In this document: piece by piece, positions 19,016 through 37,825 of the stretch
Position numbering within the stretch: the first letter of the stretch is position 1
Layout of the letters: each line of letters begins with the position of its first letter
DNA from: a virus
DNA: 38,775 bases
Direction: 5' to 3' (one strand)
Virus record (IMG/VR): IMGVR_UViG_3300028610_002131
Coordinates: 1 to 38,775 of that record
Notes under the pieces: model-generated
The model's input: only the letters and a program-made list of their open reading frames with translations
The model's database searches: none
What the model was told of the DNA's origin: nothing
Position numbers and translations under genes: made by a program

Positions 19016-20020
19016 CTACTGAACGTCTAAATTTGGTTGGAGGCTTACACTGTCCTCTAGGCTGGTGTCCACCGATGGCGGGGGAATTGAGGGTGGTACG
19101 GGTGGTTCACCATGATCCATGCCAAACATCAGCTGTTCAATCGTCATCCGATGCATAGTATCAAAGAACCAATAGGCAACATCAAAGTCCTCTGCGATAT
19201 CCTTCTGCACCAACGGCGGTGCCCACAGGTGGTAGGTATCGTACATTTCCTGCCTAGGCAACGCGGGAGTACCGTCGGGGTTCAGCGGCTGGGCATGCCC
19301 GGAGATCATCAATGTACCCCGACCTGCCATCTCCTCTCGCTGTGCCCACCGGGACACATAGCCTTCCTTACGAGGTGGCCAGGTGTTGCCATGTTCAGAA
19401 TCTGCAATGTTGCGCCAATAATGACCGTGGTTCGCAGTCCAGTCAAAGCTACCCAGCCAAGCCGTTCGCTCCTGGGGATGGCAGGTGCCTTCAATGTAGC
19501 TCTTTGTCCCTAGAGCTCTTAGCATCTTAGCTGCATGATGCTCGGGGCCACCCTCGCTCCAACCGCCTCCTGCGGCATCATACGCGATACTACATCCTGA
19601 GTTGAGGATGGGACGAATGGATCTCACAAAGCGATCGATCCAATTGTCGTCGCTGTATCGTTTCGTGATCAGCTGTAGCATATCACGGTCTAAGCCCAAC
19701 GCTCCAACGTAACAGATTACTTCTATGCCCTGACGAGTCAGGCTTCGCATAGATCTCGCGAAGCCACGGTATAACCTGGTCAGACGACGCTCTCTCGCTA
19801 CGAGCAAGCTATCAAAGCTCATAGCACTCTCTAGCTCGTTCTTGCCGAAAGGCAGGTGGAACATAAAGCGTCGAAGGCCCCAATCGATCTGGGGCATGAT
19901 CTTTTGATCTATGTATTGCGGCCAAGTCAGGTCTTTCCTATACAGAGTACTATGCATAGGAACCGTACGAGCCATAGAGGCCATGGGATGAAACGCCATC
20001 AAATTACTAGCATCGGGCAT
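19016..20020 (-). CDS. Putative TIM-barrel-like hydrolase
   Basis: A 334-residue protein from the ATG at 20020, which has AGGAG 8 bases upstream and shares TAATG with the stop of the dockerin-like gene. Segments DWGLRRFMFHLPFG, QGIEVICYVGALG, CSIAYDAAGGGW and GTLMISGHAQP look like successive beta/alpha units of a glycosidase-type barrel, with many Trp, His and Asp residues. I infer a carbohydrate- or cell-wall-active enzyme; no catalytic motif can be named. The Pro-rich tail (PPVPPSIPPPS) is probably disordered. Coupling to a dockerin-like gene suggests the two act together. Confidence 0.5.
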   Translation of the reverse strand: MPDASNLMAFHPMASMARTVPMHSTLYRKDLTWPQYIDQKIMPQIDWGLRRFMFHLPFGKNELESAMSFDSLLVARERRLTRLYRGFARSMRSLTRQGIEVICYVGALGLDRDMLQLITKRYSDDNWIDRFVRSIRPILNSGCSIAYDAAGGGWSEGGPEHHAAKMLRALGTKSYIEGTCHPQERTAWLGSFDWTANHGHYWRNIADSEHGNTWPPRKEGYVSRWAQREEMAGRGTLMISGHAQPLNPDGTPALPRQEMYDTYHLWAPPLVQKDIAEDFDVAYWFFDTMHRMTIEQLMFGMDHGEPPVPPSIPPPSVDTSLEDSVSLQPNLDVQ

Positions 20021-20355
20021 TAGGGCGTCTCCTGACATCGGAATTCATTCCACGCATCGCGGTCGAAGTCACCCCACCACGCCAACAGAATTATTAGGTC
20101 TGCAATCCCCACTACACCGTCACGATCAAGGTCGCCCCATTCGCAGCACATACCCGTCGGGCCGAGACACGCCACGTCATCGCATGCACCCCAGCCCGCG
20201 AGCATACGGAGTAGATCGGGTACGCCAACGCTATCGTCAGCACAACTTCCACCGCCAGCCGAGGGAGGACCAGCAGCATCGGGAGTCTGATAGCATACCA
20301 TTGCGGGATACGGGAGTGGACAGTCACATTGCGGAGGAGGACATTCACTAAACAT
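20020..20355 (-). CDS. Cysteine-rich protein with dockerin/EF-hand-like repeats
   Basis: A 111-residue protein with many Cys and Pro. Residues 74-95 (GDLDRDGVVGIADLIILLAWWG) match the dockerin-like calcium loop, with D75, D77, D79, G80 and D86 as candidate ligands; this type is common in Planctomycetes exported proteins. An earlier copy (about 38-57, ADDSVGVPDLLRMLAGWG) lacks the first Asp residues and may be degenerate. Dockerins bind cohesins or calcium outside the cell. AGGAGCC precedes the ATG. It is coupled to the putative hydrolase. No signal peptide is clear, so location is uncertain. Confidence 0.75.
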   Translation of the reverse strand: MFSECPPPQCDCPLPYPAMVCYQTPDAAGPPSAGGGSCADDSVGVPDLLRMLAGWGACDDVACLGPTGMCCEWGDLDRDGVVGIADLIILLAWWGDFDRDAWNEFRCQETP

Positions 20356-20367
20356 AATCAGAGGCTC

Positions 20368-20652
20368 CTATCGGGGTTTCCAATCTCTGGGTGCAACGCC
20401 GCGAGGAGTTCGGTTGGCACCTCGCGTGCTGATGTTGAGCGGAATATTGCTGCTCTGCATGAAACAGATGAGATTCTCTCTTGTCACCATTCGGTAACCG
20501 TATGGGCCTACGCGATAACACTTACACAAGCCGAGGTTCATGTAGTCTCTTATCGCATCGCGTCCAAGCTGACAGAGGAATGCCGCTTCACCAATCGTGA
20601 AAGTCGCAAGCTTGCTCGGTAGTGTCGTGGTGTCTAACATCGCCATATTCAT
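20368..20652 (-). CDS. Putative helix-turn-helix DNA-binding protein
   Basis: A 94-residue protein if the ATG at 20652 is used; an in-frame start at 20721 gives 117 residues but overlaps the upstream gene far more. TFTIGEAAFLCQLGRDAIRDYMNLGL resembles the helix-turn-helix of MerR or excisionase-type proteins, followed by VGPYGYRMVTRENLICFMQ, like the wing. It may be a regulator, perhaps of the adjacent divergent control region, which has repeated operator-like sites. No start has a good ribosome site. Confidence 0.45.
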   Translation of the reverse strand: MNMAMLDTTTLPSKLATFTIGEAAFLCQLGRDAIRDYMNLGLCKCYRVGPYGYRMVTRENLICFMQSSNIPLNISTRGANRTPRGVAPRDWKPR

Positions 20653-20971
20653 CCGTAAAGCAGATCTCTCGACGCTCATACCGCTGTTTGCCATTAAGCA
20701 CACGGCGTCGAAAGCCGTCATCCGTGAGCGATTGATAGCGTTGTGTCAGTTTCCAAGTGGTACGGACCAGTTGCTCCAGTGACCGAAAGTGCTCCCCATT
20801 GATCCGCCGTACAGCCAACCGATGCAAGGCAATATAGCACTGGCCCCGGTACTCGGCGTCGATACCTTGCAGCATCGGCAAGAACGGAGCAATTATTTGT
20901 TGAAGCCCTGACCGCCGTGCACTTGGAGGCGCAGTAGTAAGGAGACGGCCAGGGCACATGGTGGCTATCAT
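20588..20971 (-). CDS. First gene of the minus arm, hypothetical
   Basis: A 127-residue basic protein (ARRSGLQQIIAPFLPMLQGI, LHRLAVRRINGEHFRSLEQL, DDGFRRRVLNGKQRYERRE). It is the first gene transcribed leftwards from the divergent region and has AAAGGG 8 bases upstream of its ATG, but that site can pair in a hairpin. Not recognised; possibly a regulator. Confidence 0.55.
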   Translation of the reverse strand: MIATMCPGRLLTTAPPSARRSGLQQIIAPFLPMLQGIDAEYRGQCYIALHRLAVRRINGEHFRSLEQLVRTTWKLTQRYQSLTDDGFRRRVLNGKQRYERREICFTDEYGDVRHHDTTEQACDFHDW

Positions 20972-20979
20972 GTATAAGG

Positions 20980-21005
20980 CCCTTTGGAATTGATGTCACA
21001 AAGGG
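20980..21005 (-). promoter_or_regulatory. Hairpin sequestering the first leftward ribosome site
   Basis: CCCTTTG (20980-20986) pairs with CAAAGGG (20999-21005), loop of 12 bases. In the minus transcript one arm is the AAAGGG ribosome site of the gene starting at 20971, so the hairpin could hide it and limit translation until melted or bound. Confidence 0.45.
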
Positions 21006-21075
21006 CGTTCTCGTGGTGATAGAAATGAATGAAAATTTGTCGGGAAAAGGGTCCGCAAACACACTGTCGAAATTT

Positions 21076-21110
21076 CATGCGATTTGGTACCTCCATTTGG
21101 TACCGTTTTG
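21076..21110. repeat. Cluster of GGTACC-type operator-like repeats
   Basis: Three near-copies lie in tandem: ATTTGGTACC, CCATTTGGTACCG and TTTTGGTAC. The 14-mer TCCATTTGGTACCG (21092-21105) recurs exactly at 21377-21390. CATGCGATTTG (21076) recurs at 21150, next to the first 24-bp repeat. Spaced copies with a palindromic GGTACC core look like binding sites for a dimeric regulator. Confidence 0.55.
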
Positions 21111-21159
21111 GTACTCTTGAAGGAAGTGGTGCTGCTGCTTTTCGGTATTCATGCGATTT

Positions 21160-21183
21160 GTTACCGACTAACCTACCAATTGG
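21160..21183 (-). repeat. 24-bp repeat, copy 1
   Basis: This site carries the reverse complement of CCAATTGGTAGGTTAGTCGG plus TAAC, one mismatch from the perfect pair at 34552 and 36485. It faces copy 2 at 21443, forming an inverted pair around 259 bases of control region. Confidence 0.8.
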
Positions 21184-21272
21184 GGTACTATACGTTAGAG
21201 ACCATGGAGAACAATGGCGTGGGCCTGTAAGTTCTACTAGTGTAGGGTAATGAGAGATAGAGAGGATAGGAG

Positions 21273-21286
21273 ATCATCCGGATGAT
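21273..21286. promoter_or_regulatory. 14-bp perfect palindrome
   Basis: ATCATCCGGATGAT is a perfect dyad lying between the two facing 24-bp repeats. It may be a regulator or recombinase binding site; function not visible. Confidence 0.35.
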
Positions 21287-21376
21287 ATGTCTACTTGTGG
21301 CGGAATTGCGTAGTGATGGAGAATCATGTTATATTTCTGTATTCAGTAGGAAAGTATCGTTTCCCTGTGATCTAAG

Positions 21377-21390
21377 TCCATTTGGTACCG
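21377..21390 (+). repeat. Second exact copy of the 14-mer TCCATTTGGTACCG
   Basis: Identical to 21092-21105. Its first bases also match the tail of the 24-bp repeats at 21443 and 36485, where AAATGGA follows the element, so the two motif families overlap. Confidence 0.5.
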
Positions 21391-21442
21391 TATGAACAGG
21401 ACAAAATGGAATCACATTCTGGGCGAGACATTTGCCGAGCTC

Positions 21443-21466
21443 CCAATAGGTAGGTTAGTCGAGACC
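21443..21466 (+). repeat. 24-bp repeat, copy 2
   Basis: CCAATAGGTAGGTTAGTCG is exact, and the last five bases differ in three positions from copies 3 and 4. The site is followed by AAATGGA, as at copy 4. It is in inverted orientation to copy 1. Confidence 0.75.
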
Positions 21467-21605
21467 AAATGGAGATAATGGGTCATTAATCACAATATGC
21501 ACAGTCAGATCTTATTCACTTTCGTGAAACGATATTGGTCCTAGAATTTTTGCATATCATGAAACGGAAAACGGATTCACGCAAAATATATTACGCACCG
21601 CGAGA

Positions 21606-21637
21606 GGCCAAGCCTTATAAGCTTAGGGCCTTTTTTT
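21606..21637 (+). terminator. Rho-independent terminator-like hairpin with T7 run
   Basis: GGCC and AAGC pair with GCTT and GGCC around a CTTATAA loop, with an AG bulge, then seven T. No plus-strand gene precedes it, so it may end an unseen short RNA or leader. The overlapping AGGGCC (21625) and GGCCCT (21651) give a competing stem, as does TAAACCC/GGGTTTA (21656-21680), so alternative folds are possible. Confidence 0.5.
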
Positions 21638-21718
21638 AGGATTTTTTTGCGGCCCTAAACCCTTTAATACTAGGGGTTTACGGCGGTCAAAAAATAGTTT
21701 TAATTAGCCCGGTTTTAT

Positions 21719-21747
21719 TTGCGGCCGCCCGGTTTTTGAGGTATAAT
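21719..21747 (+). promoter_or_regulatory. Sigma70-like promoter for the first plus-arm gene
   Basis: TTGCGG (21719-21724) and TATAAT (21742-21747) are separated by 17 bases, the best spacing for a housekeeping promoter. It would start a transcript about 100 bases upstream of the gene at 21858. The leader contains several GGGCC and A-tract stems. Confidence 0.65.
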
Positions 21748-21857
21748 AGGGGCGTAACGCGGGCCTAAAAAAAAACGGGCCGCGTAAAAAAAACGGGCCG
21801 CTTAAAAAGCGTAAAAATTAAACGGCCTAAAAAAACTTACCTTTGAAAGGGTAAAAA

Positions 21858-22076
21858 ATGAAATTGGATTTAGGTACGCCTGAAGGCCGTGAAAAAGCCC
21901 GCCTTGAAATAGGCGGCCGGGTAACTAAAGTTTTTGAGGGCGTTCCGGTTCAAAAAGCTTACGTAACCGCTATACGTAAGCGGGCTGAAAAAGCCTTAAA
22001 CCGCCTACTTTATGAAGTAGGTTTACCTAGCGTAGGTTCTGAAGTTTATAAGCCCGTAGGTAAAAAGGCGGGCTGA
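21858..22076 (+). CDS. Small paralog family, copy 1 (72 aa)
   Basis: A 72-residue protein with a helical core (RAEKALNRLLYEVGL) and a shared segment KVFEGVPVQ.AYV.AI, ending YKPVGKKAG. By hand alignment 56 of 72 residues equal those of copy 2 (23052-23270); copy 3 at 24005 is more distant. Function unknown; the basic ends suggest nucleic acid or protein contact. GAAAGGG sits 8 bases upstream of the ATG. The codons differ strongly from copies 2 and 3 (many AAA, TTA, GTA). It has its own promoter and a trailing hairpin. Confidence 0.75.
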   Translation: MKLDLGTPEGREKARLEIGGRVTKVFEGVPVQKAYVTAIRKRAEKALNRLLYEVGLPSVGSEVYKPVGKKAG

Positions 22077-22393: not shown

Positions 22394-22448
22394 TGTGGGG
22401 CCTGTGGGTACGCCTGTCCTGTGGGTACGTGCTGTGGGTACGCAGGGC

Positions 22449-22500
22449 ATTGTACTACCCCATTGTACTACCCCATTGTACTACCCCATTGTACTACCCC
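22449..22500 (+). repeat. Four perfect tandem 13-mers
   Basis: The unit ATTGTACTACCCC is repeated four times with no mismatch. Such iterons can be protein-binding arrays, including replication initiator sites, but they may also be slippage products. A T-free run of about 60 bases follows. Confidence 0.8.
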
Positions 22501-22596
22501 ACAGCACAGCCCAGGCCAACCCACGCCAGCACAGCACAACACAGCACAACACAGCACAGGGGAGTGTGGCCATGGCCAGAAACAAATGCTTGGGTT

Positions 22597-22694
22597 TGGC
22601 CAGATGGAAATCCTCTGTGTTGTAGCCCCACAGCCCAGTGGCCATGGTTCTGCTCAACAACCTGGTTTTGCCCAAATGGAAATCCTCTGTGTTG
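22597..22694. repeat. Dispersed 85-base repeat family, left block
   Basis: The core TGGAAATCCTCTGTGTTG is found at about 22605 and 22678, and relatives in the right block at 23411 and 23517. Around it, each unit has TGGCCATG, then a TTTGGCC stretch, then the core and a GAGGA tail. Copies are diverged and interrupted, in direct orientation. Confidence 0.6.
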
Positions 22695-22956
22695 AGGAGG
22701 CCTCAGGGCACAGTGCCCATGAATTTGCCCATGTGTTCAGTCAGAAGCGAAAATCTGGCCATGATTTTGATCAAATGCTTGACTTGCATGGAATGAAAAT
22801 CCATCTGCTCAGTCAGAAGCAAAAATTGCTCATGATTTTGATCAAAAGCCTGACTTAGCCCATTTGAAAATCCAACCCAGTTCAACACAACTCAGCTCAG
22901 CCCACCTCAGCACAACTCAGCACAGCTGACAAAAAAGAATTTATTTATTTTGTTTT

Positions 22957-22989
22957 TTGACTAGCTTTTTTGAATTATGCGGCTATAAT
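22957..22989 (+). promoter_or_regulatory. Promoter-like element of paralog copy 2
   Basis: TTGACT (22957-22962), then 21 bases, then TATAAT (22984-22989) and AGCG. The same TT(G/C)ACT-21-TATA(A/C)T spacing recurs upstream of 24005 and 24635. The long spacing is off for sigma70, so the upstream box may be a separate binding site. Confidence 0.55.
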
Positions 22990-23051
22990 AGCGTATGATC
23001 CGGCGGCGTTCGCCGGGGCCGAAAATTCTGTGTATCTTGAAAGGGTACAAA

Positions 23052-23270
23052 ATGAAGTTCGATCTGAGTTCTGATTCTGGCCGTGAAGCTGCCCGTAAGA
23101 TGGTCGGTGGCCGCGTGACTGCGGTTTTTGAAGGCGTGCCCGTCCAACCGGCGTACGTCGCGGCCATCCGGAAACGGGCGGAGAAGGCTCTGAATCGCCT
23201 CCTCCATGAGGTGGGCCTGCCCCAAACGGGCACCGAGGTCTACAAGCCCGTCGGCAAAAAGGCTGGCTGA
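23052..23270 (+). CDS. Small paralog family, copy 2 (72 aa)
   Basis: A 72-residue protein, equal in length to copy 1 and 56 of 72 identical by my alignment. Shared core: FEGVPVQ.AYV.AIRKRAEKALNRLL.EVGL. Codons are GC-ending (GCC, CTG, AAG), unlike copy 1, so synonymous sites are very divergent. I chose the ATG at 23052 because GAAAGGG lies upstream; an in-frame ATG exists at 22995. A terminator with T5 follows. It sits between two blocks of the 85-base repeat. Confidence 0.75.
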   Translation: MKFDLSSDSGREAARKMVGGRVTAVFEGVPVQPAYVAAIRKRAEKALNRLLHEVGLPQTGTEVYKPVGKKAG

Positions 23271-23276
23271 CCGGCC

Positions 23277-23311
23277 GAGAGGGGCCTCGCCTAACGGCGG
23301 GGCCTCTTTTT
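23277..23311 (+). terminator. Rho-independent terminator after copy 2
   Basis: A GC-rich stem (GGGGCCTCGCC with GGCGGGGCC, one G-T pair) closes on TAAC and is followed by TCTTTTT. It lies 7 bases after the stop. A solid terminator. Confidence 0.75.
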
Positions 23312-23410
23312 CCCCACGTTCTCTGTGCTGAGCACACGCTCAGGCCTCAGTGGCCATGATTCTGGCCAGAAAGAAGAATGTGGCCATGAATTTGAAGAAA
23401 TACTTGGTTT

Positions 23411-23547
23411 TGGCCAAGTGGAAATCCTCTGTGCTGAGGAGCCACTCAGTGCTCAGTGGCCAAAATTCTGGCCAACCAGAAGAATCTGGCCATGAAGATG
23501 AAGAAATACCTGCTTTTGGCCAAATGGAAATCGCTCTGTGGTTCCAC
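23411..23547. repeat. Dispersed 85-base repeat family, right block
   Basis: Two cores, TGGCCAAGTGG + AAATCCTCTGTGCTG (23411) and TGGCCAAATGG + AAATCGCTCTGTGG (23517), with upstream GAAATAC(T/C)TG stretches that match each other. Related to the left block at 22597. Confidence 0.6.
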
Positions 23548-23891
23548 AAAAATGTGGCCAAATTTCTGATCAAACACTTGGTTTGATGGAAATGGAAATC
23601 GCACACCCCTATTTCATGAAATAAAAGTCATGATTAAATTATCATGAAATGGGCGCATGAAATAATATCATGACTCGTTTCCACATGCTTGTGGGCAGAC
23701 TCAAAAGCAAATCGGTGCAGTGCGCAGTGTGATCGCGAGCTGCTTCGCACGGGGTCATATATCATTTGTGCGTACCAATTCGGGTCAACCTAATCAGCAC
23801 GCCTGTACGCAGTCATAAACAACGAAAACACCTATTTCTATTGCGGCAAGTGCGTATCAAAATTAAAACTATTTTTCTGATATTGTTATAT

Positions 23892-24004: not shown

Positions 24005-24259
24005 ATGGCTGCCACTAATCCCCCCAGGTCCGGCGGTTTGATCAGCATTCTGAGCAGCGAGCAGGGCAGGCAACAGTCCCTGACCGACCTCAGAAATCAG
24101 GTCACGAAGGTCTTTGAAGGCGTGCCGGTGCAGCCCGCGTACGTCAAGGCCATCGCCGACCGGGCCGAGAAAGCCCTCAACAGGCTTTTGCACGAAATCG
24201 GGCTGCAACAGGTGGGCACCCAGATCTACAAGCCTGCCGGTAAAAAGGCGTCCGCGTAG
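24005..24259 (+). CDS. Small paralog family, copy 3 (84 aa)
   Basis: An 84-residue protein with a longer N terminus (AATNPPRSGGLISIL) but the same core (KVFEGVPVQPAYVKAI, RAEKALNRLLHEIGL, YKPAGKKA). AAAGGAGCC precedes the ATG, the extended ribosome site of the plus arm. It is followed by a 36-residue membrane gene and a terminator, making a two-gene unit. Confidence 0.7.
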   Translation: MAATNPPRSGGLISILSSEQGRQQSLTDLRNQVTKVFEGVPVQPAYVKAIADRAEKALNRLLHEIGLQQVGTQIYKPAGKKASA

Positions 24260-26331: not shown

Positions 26332-26528
26332 TGTTTCATGGGTCGCACGAACTTAATGGCCAGAGCCTAGTGGTGGAGCTTGGCCGGGCCGGTGATGATC
26401 GGTCGGAGCACCAAGTGCGGAAGCCAGATGCTAGGCGGGAGACGGTTCGTGCGATCCACCCTTTCAAGGCTGGGCAGGCGGTAACGTCTGTCCGGCTTTT
26501 TGTCTCTGAACCTCTTCAAGGAGCCTAA
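26331..26528 (+). CDS. Hypothetical protein (65 aa)
   Basis: A 65-residue protein starting at ATG 26331, or at the adjacent GTG 26328. Basic (EHQVRKPDARRETV) with a beta C terminus (VTSVRLFVSEP). The last codons CAA GGA GCC TAA are also the ribosome site of the gene at 26530. Not recognised. Confidence 0.5.
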   Translation: MFHGSHELNGQSLVVELGRAGDDRSEHQVRKPDARRETVRAIHPFKAGQAVTSVRLFVSEPLQGA

Positions 26529-28369: not shown

Positions 28370-28450
28370 CATTCTCATCGAGTCTGGGTAGGACGAAAGT
28401 TCTGCTCAGGCTTTGTTCGAAATTCTAACACAAAAGGAGCCTATCGATGA
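28370..28450 (+). pseudogene. In-frame tail or remnant after the stop of 28085-28369
   Basis: 26 codons plus stop in the frame of the previous gene. The DNA matches 32880-32940 over about 60 bases (GACGAAAGT, GGCT, TTTGTTC, ATTC, AGGAGCCTA in the same order). No start codon lies in it. It is best read as a remnant of a duplicated gene end, or as a read-through extension. Confidence 0.35.
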
Positions 28451-32796: not shown

Positions 32797-32933
32797 TCAA
32801 GGAACTGGTGTCCCGTGGGGACGGCCACACACTCCGTCTCAGATGTTTCACGGGGACCTCCTGGGTGTCGGAGCCCAGGCCGCTCGGGTCAAGACGAAAG
32901 TCTTGGCTCGGGTTTGTTCTGATTCAAACATAG
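32793..32933 (+). CDS. Small basic protein (46 aa) with SRRKSWLGFV tail
   Basis: A 46-residue protein (MIKELVSRGDGHTLRLRCF and on), ending SRRKSWLGFVLIQT. It starts in the ATGA overlap. Its tail resembles the in-frame remnant at 28370-28450. Basic, with possible RNA-binding character. Not recognised. Confidence 0.5.
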   Translation: MIKELVSRGDGHTLRLRCFTGTSWVSEPRPLGSRRKSWLGFVLIQT

Positions 32934-34205: not shown

Positions 34206-34324
34206 ACCATCCTGGGGTGGCGTGTGGCAGCGAGACCGTGATGCCGAGGTTTTGGGTTAGGCTCCTTCCAAGGTATCACGTGTTCCCCACACGCCCCCTG
34301 GGACTTTACAGAGGAGGCTCATGA
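34202..34324 (+). CDS. Possible small basic protein (40 aa)
   Basis: A 40-residue frame with ATG in ATGA overlap with the previous gene, and a stop overlapping the next start. Basic (FWVRLLPRYHVFPTRPLG). Supported only by the tight overlaps on both sides. Confidence 0.4.
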   Translation: MNHPGVACGSETVMPRFWVRLLPRYHVFPTRPLGLYRGGS

Positions 34325-34563
34325 TGGATTGTCCAATGTGTGGCAAGAAAGTTAGCATCAAGACAATTAAGAAATCTCGTGGATGTACCAGTGGCATGAT
34401 AATTTTCGCGATGGGTGTTGCTATCACAATAGTTATACCAATTGTCGGGTGGGTTCTTGGACCACTCATCTGTATCAGCGTTCTGCTAGATGGCGGCGAA
34501 GAAACCAAGATAATCTATTGCAAAAAATGTAAATTAGATCTCCATCCTTCCGTTACCGACTAA
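34321..34563 (+). CDS. Membrane-inserted zinc-ribbon protein (LITAF-like layout)
   Basis: An 80-residue protein. CPMC (4-7) and CKKC (about 67-70) flank a hydrophobic stretch (about 25-56, MIIFAMGVAITIVIPIVGWV and on), the layout of LITAF-like domains, where a zinc ribbon is split by a membrane helix. Homology is not certain. Its last codons (VTD, stop) lie inside 24-bp repeat copy 3. Function unknown; might sit in the host membrane. Confidence 0.55.
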   Translation: MMDCPMCGKKVSIKTIKKSRGCTSGMIIFAMGVAITIVIPIVGWVLGPLICISVLLDGGEETKIIYCKKCKLDLHPSVTD

Positions 34564-34575
34564 CCTACCTATTGG
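34552..34575 (-). repeat. 24-bp repeat, copy 3
   Basis: The perfect reverse complement of copy 4 (36485-36508). It supplies the TAA stop of the zinc-ribbon gene and marks the left edge of a 1909-base segment ending at copy 4. Confidence 0.85.
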
Positions 34576-34586
34576 AAGACGCTACG

Positions 34587-34769
34587 ATGCACGAACCCGA
34601 AGAAGACGACGTCGAAGATGAATACGAATGCGTACTGTGTGAAAGGACATTTTCGCACTTGCCTAAGGTGTGTGAATGTGGAAACCATACGTTCAATAAG
34701 ATAGAGGAGCCAGCCGATGACCCAAGCGAAGAGTGGCTCGCAGGCGAGCAGCGAAACTTCTCCGACTGA
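34587..34769 (+). CDS. Small acidic zinc-ribbon-like protein (60 aa)
   Basis: A 60-residue protein from ATG 34587 (a TTG at 34572 is possible). Contains ECVLC (about 14-18) and CECG (about 29-32), a pair likely to bind zinc, within a very acidic context (EPEEDDVEDE). First gene inside the repeat-framed segment. GGAAG lies upstream. Confidence 0.55.
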   Translation: MHEPEEDDVEDEYECVLCERTFSHLPKVCECGNHTFNKIEEPADDPSEEWLAGEQRNFSD

Positions 34770-35610
34770 ATTCAGTCCAGCTGATTTTCTCGGTAAGGTT
34801 GATGTGCCAGAAGGTCAAGTGGGCCAGTATAAGATTCGTCACATTCACGATGGTGATGGCAGTATGCGACCTATCAGTAGCCTGCGAACCTCGATGTTCG
34901 GAGGACACAAGAGCGAAAGGGTCACATTTCCTCAGGGAGCCAAGTGGCATGAGCTGAGTTATTCCAACGGTGTTTGGATGACTGATCTTCCGATTGAACA
35001 ACAACAGTGTAACCAATTATTGAAAAACTTTTACGGCAACATATTGGTGGGTGGCTTGGGGATAGGCTATGCGGTCAACTTGCTCGCGTCCATGAGCGAC
35101 GTGAATGAAGTAACCGTTGTAGAGATCAGCCCAGAGGTTATAGAGCTAGTTGCCGGACACATCATAGATCCAGAGGGGAAAGTTGAAGTAATAGAGATGG
35201 ATCTCTTTGAATACCTCAAGAAAGAACAAGAGGACACTATCGGAACAGGCATCTACTTCGATTGTGCATTCTACGACCTCTGGCAAAGTGATGGCGAAGG
35301 AACGTTCCATGACATGGTCGTGCCACTTAAGAAATTAAGTGAAGGCACTGTTGAACATGTCGTTTGCTGGAATGAAGACATCATGAAGGGTCAACTCTTT
35401 TTCAATCTACAATCTCGGTTTCGTATGTGCAACCTCCCGCCCGAGTTCACTAGCCATTGTAAGATAGATCTAACTCTCGAACTACTGGCAACCATACAAG
35501 ACGACAAGTACTGGGATTGGGCTGTCCCATTCTGGAAGGATTGGATAGAAGGCGGCTATCCACCGGAGAAGTTCGACGATCGTGCAGCAGCGTTTGTGAG
35601 GGCCCAATGA
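34717..35610 (+). CDS. SAM-dependent transferase-like protein (spermidine synthase-like fold)
   Basis: A 297-residue protein with a class I Rossmann signature: GGLGIGY (112-118), VVEISPEVIELV (134-145, with the ribose-binding acidic residue E136), MDLFEYL (161-167) and FDCAFYDLWQ (181-190). The layout resembles spermidine synthase-like or methyltransferase proteins. Substrate unknown. AGGAGCC lies 6 bases upstream. Main gene of the 24-bp-repeat-framed segment. Confidence 0.65.
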   Translation: MTQAKSGSQASSETSPTEFSPADFLGKVDVPEGQVGQYKIRHIHDGDGSMRPISSLRTSMFGGHKSERVTFPQGAKWHELSYSNGVWMTDLPIEQQQCNQLLKNFYGNILVGGLGIGYAVNLLASMSDVNEVTVVEISPEVIELVAGHIIDPEGKVEVIEMDLFEYLKKEQEDTIGTGIYFDCAFYDLWQSDGEGTFHDMVVPLKKLSEGTVEHVVCWNEDIMKGQLFFNLQSRFRMCNLPPEFTSHCKIDLTLELLATIQDDKYWDWAVPFWKDWIEGGYPPEKFDDRAAAFVRAQ

Positions 35611-35831
35611 TTTGGAAAAAACAACCTCCGTCTGCTGTGGGTTTGTACCTGCGAGTAAACGCTGGCCACCAGATCAGCAGGCACTACGTCATCGATATCG
35701 ACGGTGTGCTCAATATCAACTGGGGCTGGGGTAGTGGAGCGTTAGTGCGGATTGACAAGCTCGGCAAGAAGCTCGACAACTGGTGGTGGTTTGGACCAAT
35801 TCCCGATGCACCTAAAGAGGCATATGAGTAA
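35607..35831 (+). CDS. Small hypothetical protein (74 aa)
   Basis: A 74-residue protein rich in Trp and Gly (NWGWGSGALVRID, NWWWFGPIPDAP) with a DIDGVLNI strand. Starts in the ATGA overlap with the transferase. Not recognised. Confidence 0.55.
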   Translation: MIWKKQPPSAVGLYLRVNAGHQISRHYVIDIDGVLNINWGWGSGALVRIDKLGKKLDNWWWFGPIPDAPKEAYE

Positions 35832-36495
35832 TATGAGAGTAGCATTTTGCATAGGCAATGGCGAGAGTCGTAGGCATTTTGATCTCAATCGGTTGCGTAA
35901 CCAAGGACCGATAGCGGGCTGTAACGCTTTGTACAGAGATTTTGAACCTACCTTTCTCGTTGCAGTTGATTCTGGTATGTGTGCGGAAGTACAAAGAAGT
36001 GGTTACACGGGCAAGATCCTTACCATCAGGAAAGATCACGCGAAAAAGCAGTATTGGCTAGTTGATGTGATAACAGAGGAGAAAATTTGCACACAACAGC
36101 CAATTTGGGCCAGTGGACCTTGGTCGGTATTGGCTATGGTCAGGTTGTATCCGAAAGTAGAAGAGGTCTTCTTTCTTGGGCATGATTTTCATGGATGTAT
36201 GAATTCTGGCGAGAATCTCCACAACAACCTCTATAAAGGTACCAAAAATTATGATGTAGTTGATTGCGACGCGAAGAACCCGTTGTCATGGATCCAACAG
36301 ATTGCACATGTAGTCATCAATCATCCGGGAATTCATTTCACACGTGTAGGACCAGTTCCATACCTAGTTGGAATAGACGAATGGGTGGGTGCATTCAGTG
36401 GATTGGTGGAACAGCCGAATTTCGGGTGTATAGAGTATCAAGATTTTTACAAGTGTCTGGAAAGTAGCTTTTCCATTGCGCCAGCCAATAGGTAG
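35824..36495 (+). CDS. DUF115/MAF-like Rossmann protein
   Basis: A 223-residue protein. CIGNGESRR (9-17), GPIAGCNALYRDF (28-40), LVAVDSGM (45-52) and FFLGHDFHGC match the DUF115/MAF-type family, common in phages and thought to handle nucleotide sugars or pterin-like substrates. The role here is unproven. Its last codons and TAG stop lie in 24-bp repeat copy 4. Confidence 0.65.
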   Translation: MSNMRVAFCIGNGESRRHFDLNRLRNQGPIAGCNALYRDFEPTFLVAVDSGMCAEVQRSGYTGKILTIRKDHAKKQYWLVDVITEEKICTQQPIWASGPWSVLAMVRLYPKVEEVFFLGHDFHGCMNSGENLHNNLYKGTKNYDVVDCDAKNPLSWIQQIAHVVINHPGIHFTRVGPVPYLVGIDEWVGAFSGLVEQPNFGCIEYQDFYKCLESSFSIAPANR

Positions 36496-36508
36496 GTTAG
36501 TCGGTAAC
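36485..36508 (+). repeat. 24-bp repeat, copy 4
   Basis: CCAATAGGTAGGTTAGTCGG plus TAAC, the exact inverse of copy 3, followed by AAATGGA as in copy 2. It supplies the TAG stop of the DUF115-like gene and closes the framed segment. Confidence 0.85.
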
Positions 36509-36569
36509 AAATGGAATCAAATCCAATGACCCCGAGACGTCGACTTAAGGGACTTAAGGGAGTTAAGTG

Positions 36570-36665
36570 ATGGACAAAATGCCTTGGACAACTAGAATTT
36601 TATTGCTTTGTCTGATTGTAGCGTTTGCTTGTGCCATTGGTTTAGCGTATCGTTGCGTATTATGA
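36570..36665 (+). CDS. 31-aa membrane microprotein
   Basis: A 31-residue protein: MDKMPWTTRILLLCLIVAFA is hydrophobic after a short polar start. GGGAG lies upstream. Its stop overlaps the next start. Function unknown. Confidence 0.5.
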   Translation: MDKMPWTTRILLLCLIVAFACAIGLAYRCVL

Positions 36666-36790: not shown

Positions 36791-36883
36791 TGGCCAATGC
36801 GGTGGCCAACTGAAAAAAACTTTTGGTAAATCCGGGAATCTTCACCCCTACGTCAGCCAAGATCAGGTATACTACCAATAGGC

Positions 36884-37825
36884 ATGAGCAGGAAATATAC
36901 TGAACATGAACTTCGTCGAGGCGCAAACCAACCTTTCAAGAGGTTTGATGTAGACCGCATTGATTGGGAAGTCGCTTGTGTGATCCCCGGAACACCGGGC
37001 GAACGCTGGCGCAACCAGTTGCAAGCCTTGTTCGTGCCCTCGCGGATGTTTCATCAGGTAGAGGATCTCGATGTATCTGTCAGTAAGCTATTCCGTCGAC
37101 GGTTCCCAAAGTTACCACCCTACAGTCCCGCACGTAGAATTGCTGCTGTATGTATGTGCCATGCCAGTCTATGGAAGGAGTCTCGCGACTGGGGCAATTC
37201 AGCCGAAGCACAGCAACACGCCGTGGAATTCATAGAACGTTGGCTCGCGTTCCCGTACAAACGAGTCAAGCTCAGAGGAAATAGGGATCGCTTGAGGTAT
37301 GAACTACTAGGTGCGTTACCTGGTGAGCCTGATCCCGAACCCAATCAAGGAGACGTTATCATGGCTAAGAAAAAGAAAACCTCCAAGAAGGTCAGTACTG
37401 CTCCTGGTGGCAAGAAAAAGAAGGTTGGTCGGCCCGCTAAGGTCGGCAAGAAGAAGGCGGGTCGGCCCTCCAAGAAGGCCTCCAGCAAGAAGGCTGAACC
37501 CGCTCGTGACGACAGGCCCACGCCGTTTGGCGACAACACCAGCTACAACGCTGATGGCGAAGCTTACGACAAGCGGTTCGGGCGACCCGGTTCGGCCAGA
37601 GGTGTATTCTGCGAGTTGCTGCTCCGGGCCAAGGGTGCTACGGAAAAGGAGCTCGTCACTGCTGCCTGTAAGGCCGGTCTGTATCCCAACAACGAGGCAG
37701 GCCACACCAAGGCTCGTAACCAGCTGAAGATGAACATCATGGCTTTCCGTCGTGATGGCGAAGAGGATGGCTACGAGTTCAAGGTTTTGAATGAGGACAA
37801 GAAGCAGTACCGAGTCGTTGCGTAA
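36884..37825 (+). CDS. Basic DNA-binding-like protein with AT-hook-like motifs and internal start
   Basis: A 313-residue protein. N-terminal part (1-155) has basic helices and a Cys pair (AVCMCHASLW). Residues about 160-205 are Lys/Ala-rich with two GRP cores (182-184, 193-195), like AT hooks or histone H1 tails. The C terminus (RGVFCELLLRAKGATEKELV and onward) resembles a small helical domain that may act with DNA. An in-frame ATG at 37361 has AAGGAG 8 bases upstream, so a 154-residue product is likely made too. The main start has a weak ribosome site. Confidence 0.65.
   Translation: MSRKYTEHELRRGANQPFKRFDVDRIDWEVACVIPGTPGERWRNQLQALFVPSRMFHQVEDLDVSVSKLFRRRFPKLPPYSPARRIAAVCMCHASLWKESRDWGNSAEAQQHAVEFIERWLAFPYKRVKLRGNRDRLRYELLGALPGEPDPEPNQGDVIMAKKKKTSKKVSTAPGGKKKKVGRPAKVGKKKAGRPSKKASSKKAEPARDDRPTPFGDNTSYNADGEAYDKRFGRPGSARGVFCELLLRAKGATEKELVTAACKAGLYPNNEAGHTKARNQLKMNIMAFRRDGEEDGYEFKVLNEDKKQYRVVA

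Follow-up and report, generated by a model that had tools for sequence, protein, structure and literature searches.

The perfect 24-bp inverted repeat that frames a block of four genes in an uncultured virus belongs to a family of four related copies, hereafter A to D. Judged from the sequence, we lean on balance towards these being operator-like sites, private to this phage, of a candidate phage regulator, with A and B placed at a divergent switch and with C and D bracketing the gene block, where they may serve as roadblocks or distal operators. The DNA under study is the IMG/VR viral record IMGVR_UViG_3300028610_002131, and the window denotes this whole stretch of 38,775 bases.

The window is organized in two divergent arms. 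Structural genes, including the terminase, the major head protein and their neighbours, occupy the minus strand of the left arm up to approximately position 20971, and many small early-type genes populate the plus strand of the right arm from 21858 onward, with the sign of the GC skew switching between the two. Copies A and B, together with a number of lone half-sites, reside in the intergenic region that separates the arms, and C and D are located in the right arm, 13-15 kb away from A/B (Table 1). A second contig, G001, is 99.9% identical to the window over 15.3 kb and extends 6.5 kb beyond its left end; no copy of the element was found in this 6.5-kb extension, and the overlap with the window stops short of the A-D sites.

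Table 1. Repeat copies, half-sites and genes of the control region and the four-gene block (window coordinates).
Feature	Position	Strand	Remarks
Intergenic region between divergent arms	20972-21857	.	886 bp; holds copies A, B and lone half-sites; delimited by ORF layout and GC-skew switch
Lone half-site CGATTTGGTA	21080-21089	+	1 mismatch to CCATTTGGTA
Lone half-site CCATTTGGTA	21093-21102	+	0 mismatches
Weak half-site CGTTTTGGTA	21104-21113	+	2 mismatches
Copy A	21153-21183 (24-bp core 21160-21183)	-	28/31 to D; points toward left (structural) arm
Lone half-site CCATTTGGTA	21378-21387	+	0 mismatches
Weak half-site CCATTTTGTC	21400-21409	-	2 mismatches
Copy B	21443-21473 (24-bp core 21443-21466)	+	28/31 to D; points toward right (early) arm
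LITAF-like zinc-ribbon ORF	34321-34563	+	outside block, ends in copy C; Pfam zf-LITAF-like E 3e-4, below curated cut-off
Copy C	34545-34575 (24-bp core 34552-34575)	-	left edge of block; core 24/24 to D, unit 28/31
Block gene 1, zinc-ribbon-like, 60 aa	34587-34769	+	CxxC/CxC motif by eye; no clear family match
Block gene 2, SAM-methyltransferase-like, 297 aa	34717-35610	+	phrog_15480 E 1.5e-15
Block gene 3, Trp-rich, 74 aa	35607-35831	+	no family match
Block gene 4, DUF115-like, 223 aa, full length	35824-36495	+	phrog_30607 E 2.3e-29; Pelagibacter phage homologues
Copy D	36485-36515 (24-bp core 36485-36508)	+	right edge of block; identical to consensus

As already stated in a first-pass annotation of this DNA, the core of C, GTTACCGACTAACCTACCTATTGG, and that of D are exact reverse complements. 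No perfect inverted repeat of the window is longer, and a random sequence of the window's length would be expected to contain about 2.7e-6 such pairs. The accompanying observation that the stop codons of the overlapped genes come from the repeats themselves is equally upheld: the TAA at 34561-34563, in C, ends the upstream ORF, and the TAG at 36493-36495, in D, ends the DUF115-like ORF. The 19-bp core CCAATWGGTAGGTTAGTCG is matched four times in the window against 0.01 expected from shuffles, and a search of the window at low stringency recovered no fifth copy, the next-best 31-mer having 12 mismatches to the consensus.

With the orientation of each copy defined by the direction of CCAATWGG..., conservation continues outward past the 24 bp, reaching 31 bp in D, and an AAAT in the outward extension is common to A, B and D. 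Copy D equals the consensus of this 31-bp unit, which, as the half-site motif described below, was defined post hoc, after inspection of the data. A, B and C deviate from D at three positions each, and from one another at six (25/31). All three changes of C fall within the outer seven bases of the unit, where it overlaps the final codons of the upstream ORF, and it is for this reason that C and D coincide over 24 bp. Since A, B and C are each 28/31 to D, C/D is no more a pair than D/A or D/B. The pattern looks like that of independent copies of one putative binding site, star-like around a single consensus, rather than that of partner arms. By eye, T7-type promoters or tRNA D-arms seemed similar to the repeat, a likeness that was discarded as chance.

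The 31-bp unit can be described as an imperfect dyad, in which 10-bp arms with the consensus CCAWTWGGTA flank a 10-bp centre. Its outward part read inward is CCATTTGTTA and its opposite end is CCAATAGGTA (CCAATTGGTA in A), all of which are similar to CCATTTGGTA. Compared with the inverted half-site, the left part of the unit matches at 8 of 10 positions in D and at 9 of 10 in A, values that shuffles reach in 0.5% (p ~0.005) and 0.03% (p ~0.0003) of cases, respectively. The symmetry, imperfect and defined post hoc, encompasses 7 of the 10 arm positions in A, B and D, and 5 of 10 in C, with the poor dyad of the latter counting against an operator function. Single extra half-sites cluster only in the stretch that separates the divergent arms, close to A and B; when no more than one mismatch is allowed, 21050-21490 contains six half-sites compared to a mean of 0.06 in shuffles, an excess that is overstated as the motif was picked from the same region. 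Another half-site-like sequence, CCAATAGGC at 36873-36884, overlaps the start of the gene at 36884 and shows 1 mismatch on each strand; it may be chance.

The simplest reading of a dyad accompanied by extra half-sites is a dimeric DNA-binding protein, for which A-D would represent full sites, supplemented by half-sites at the control region. Such a protein would recognise two inverted 10-bp half-sites around the 10-bp centre. At A/B and the single half-sites it would set the balance between the leftward structural and the rightward early arms, and at C/D it would govern whether transcription enters and leaves the four-gene block, acting either as a roadblock or from a distal operator that loops to A/B. 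One site in several related copies, some in a divergent control region (here A, B and the half-sites) and others elsewhere (here C and D), is the constellation by which an operator set is recognised. Among the three possibilities raised by the first-pass annotation, namely a mobile or invertible cassette, a recombination target and paired control sites, it is the last that fits best, considering the dyad-like family, the half-sites restricted to the divergent region and the independent deviation of the copies. No regulator gene was identified apart from one weak helix-turn-helix-like candidate (20368-20649, minus strand), with only weak Pfam matches (E ~0.11) and a poor structure model (pLDDT 45). 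If the operator reading is correct, the 31-bp consensus would offer a probe with which an uncultured phage's regulator could be sought, and phage-private operators would be able to occupy the edges of gene blocks besides the main switch. Moreover, four copies of a regulatory site can mimic a repeat-framed cassette when just two of them are compared.

The four ORFs attributed to the block are indeed located between C and D. The zinc ribbon assigned to it requires a distinction, as a zinc-ribbon-like ORF is present inside, whereas the LITAF-like zinc ribbon is the gene outside that ends in C. The DUF115-like protein is intact despite D, its alignment spanning both ends of the Pelagibacter-phage homologues. 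Base composition of the block genes is ordinary, and the methyltransferase-like gene is preceded by an AGGAGCC ribosome site that is typical of the right arm, and hence native in style; homologues of this gene in viral contigs display up to 40% identity. Just 5' of the LITAF-like gene we also observed a large stable hairpin (34209-34304, z -3.3), for which Rfam gave no match.

The element appears confined to this phage in the collections searched. Exact scans returned no copy in IMG/VR other than the window itself and none in the genome contig collection, none was detected in 17 terminase-related records, and neither a phage-record DNA search nor Rfam yielded a match. Across the three MAG genomes that encode a related terminase, matches with three mismatches occurred at roughly the rate seen in the backward control. 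That no relative among those searched carries the site counts against the operator reading. Single-protein queries with the block proteins and the 36884 protein revealed no close relatives in IMG/VR, and alignment queries recovered many distant homologues of the methyltransferase-like and DUF115-like proteins. Within the fetched flanks, these two main block genes occurred together in none of 145 loci, and no comparable pair of perfect inverted repeats of at least 18 bp surrounded a homologous gene among those loci; the sole bracketing pair, found in L192, spans 9.4 kb and is part of a sequence that recurs several times in a 10.7-kb locus of a 411-kb contig.

A terminase relative, G008 (L072-L074), provides a parallel: the region between its divergent arms contains a perfect inverted repeat of 33 bp, which is a duplicated sigma70-type promoter (TTGACT, AATTATGGTATAATAGGGG). 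This promoter is reused, with up to 3 mismatches, at 36615 (-), 42184 (+) and 45002 (+). Perfect inverted repeats can thus arise because one control sequence serves both arms, and paired inverted control sites do occur in this kind of genome. In total, five near-identical copies of the one strong sigma70-type promoter are found in G008, of which two form the 33-bp inverted repeat. Another genome, G005, has two inverted 18-bp copies in an intergenic position, separated by 184 bp.

C/D, and perhaps A/B, could instead serve a recombinase as crossover sites, with the 1.9-kb block being inverted or exchanged and a 0.26-kb control segment inverted, an explanation we consider unlikely. Perfect 24-bp inverted copies that frame a segment at gene boundaries, an imperfect dyad resembling recombinase core sites and the inverted layout shared by the A/B and C/D pairs are all congruent with site-specific recombination, and as the stop codon within the repeat is in frame with the ORF at either edge, inversion would spare the flanking reading frames. 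Gene gain and loss between short repeats, with empty sites that retain a single copy, is moreover documented in cluster O phages (PMC4351075). However, no inverted or empty version was seen here, no other contig in the scans holding the site, and partnerless extra half-sites are not expected of crossover sites. The centre of 10 bp also exceeds the norm for tyrosine recombinases, where it usually measures 6-8 bp. A recombinase elsewhere in the genome, for which the first-pass annotation proposed to look, did not emerge: searches for tyrosine (PF00589) and serine (PF00239) recombinases, in which control genomes were positive, came back empty for the window, for G001 and for six terminase relatives. 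This negative result carries little weight, given that part of the genome is missing and that the host might supply the enzyme. One may further conceive of a single site that serves two invertible segments, the 0.26-kb A/B control and the 1.9-kb C/D block, with a recombinase from the missing genome part or the host coupling the expression of arm and block, but we find this decidedly improbable. Even less credence is given to terminal inverted repeats, with C-D as a non-autonomous cassette and A-B as its 0.3-kb MITE-like relative. Two segments of unequal length with the same inverted ends would agree with such an origin, yet neither pair is flanked, at any boundary up to 10 bp away, by a direct repeat of at least 4 bp that would indicate a target-site duplication, the sequences adjoining the repeats on their inner and outer sides are no more alike than chance allows, and conservation in A, B and D runs outward past the supposed element ends. 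Likewise, no transposase was found among the clear family matches of the proteins scanned (a subset of the ORFs), and a mobile element is not borne out by further copies in IMG/VR or the genome contigs. With homologues that neither travel together nor are framed by comparable repeats, and with block genes of ordinary composition, the proposed mobile or invertible cassette finds no support, and the earlier interpretation as a whole is partly supported.

Two other explanations place the repeats in gene expression. Long-range RNA pairing, by which C and D on one transcript would form a 24-bp duplex that is cut by RNase III to release the block mRNA, in the manner of the rRNA processing stems, is very doubtful. 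C and D are perfectly complementary and associated with co-directional genes, and A and B pair too in an RNA fold of their region. Nevertheless, this A-B fold is unexceptional (z -1.5), the differences between A and B create mismatches in the A:B duplex that are left unpaired rather than being compensatory, and the lone half-sites are given no role. Somewhat better, though still quite unlikely, is the possibility of orientation-dependent promoters or polar terminator-type sites, used by a phage RNA polymerase, an activator or a repressor of the L5 stoperator type. A is directed into the left arm, and B and D into rightward genes, and G008 exemplifies inverted promoter copies at a divergent region. 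C is however directed against the transcription of its arm, and no -10/-35 elements are found at a constant distance from the copies; nor does any sigma70-type promoter match overlap A-D, -35/-10 boxes being absent from the repeat itself. The stoperators of L5-type, cluster A mycobacteriophages are asymmetric 13-bp sites present in >20 copies per genome, with an orientation that correlates with transcription (PMC9283540). They resemble the window's sites in being private repeated sequences in short gene junctions and promoter regions, but the window has four longer sites in opposed pairs, with C and D adopting opposite orientations within one rightward arm.

Returning to the operator reading, the operator sets of temperate phages, such as OL/OR of lambda, are functionally closest to the window's sites. 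In TP901-1, three related palindromic operators, OL, OR and OD, are described (PMC11149083). The likeness lies in few related dyad copies that are read as half-sites, concentrated at the switch and with others elsewhere. The window differs by a centre that is 10 bp and asymmetric, by far copies 13-15 kb off at block edges and by a regulator that is only a candidate. Cluster O mycobacteriophages possess private 17-bp dyad repeats in >30 copies, partly at gene junctions, and gene 60 of YungJamal lies between 24-bp repeats, of which relatives without the gene keep a single copy (PMC4351075). Both cases thus have phage-private dyad repeats, partly at junctions, and 24-bp repeats on either side of coding sequence, and by analogy the YungJamal insertion is a precedent for the earlier cassette idea, whereas the copy number (>30 versus four in the window) and the empty sites displayed by cluster O relatives set the two apart. 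Invertons similarly have perfect inverted repeats framing a segment; they differ in that the window has unpaired half-sites, with no recombinase found and no inverted form seen.

Several other features of the two arms were observed. On the minus strand, 20020-20355 encodes a small protein whose calcium-binding repeat (DLDRDGVVGIADLIILLAWWG) is dockerin-like and for which Pfam gave no match; this style of repeat is known from Planctomycetota, and a Planctomycetota MAG contains one terminase relative. The right arm opens with three paralogous proteins of 72-84 aa in series (21858-22076, 23052-23270 and 24005-24259), the second being 78% and the third 58% identical to the first, and TATAAT promoter-like sequences are present 5' of the first two (at 21742 and 22984). 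Between the paralogues, in an apparently non-coding stretch (22448-22512), the 13-bp CATTGTACTACCC is repeated head-to-tail, and these tandem repeats are adjoined by degenerate 36-70-bp repeats at 22560-23600. Finally, three hairpins (26465-26505, 28379-28418 and 32879-32916) sit shortly 5' of ribosome sites of right-arm genes, each with a stem of ~15 bp, a GNRA tetraloop and a U-rich tract behind it. All three are perhaps attenuator-like terminators, and for two of them the fold is much more stable than in shuffles (z -3.9 and -4.0).
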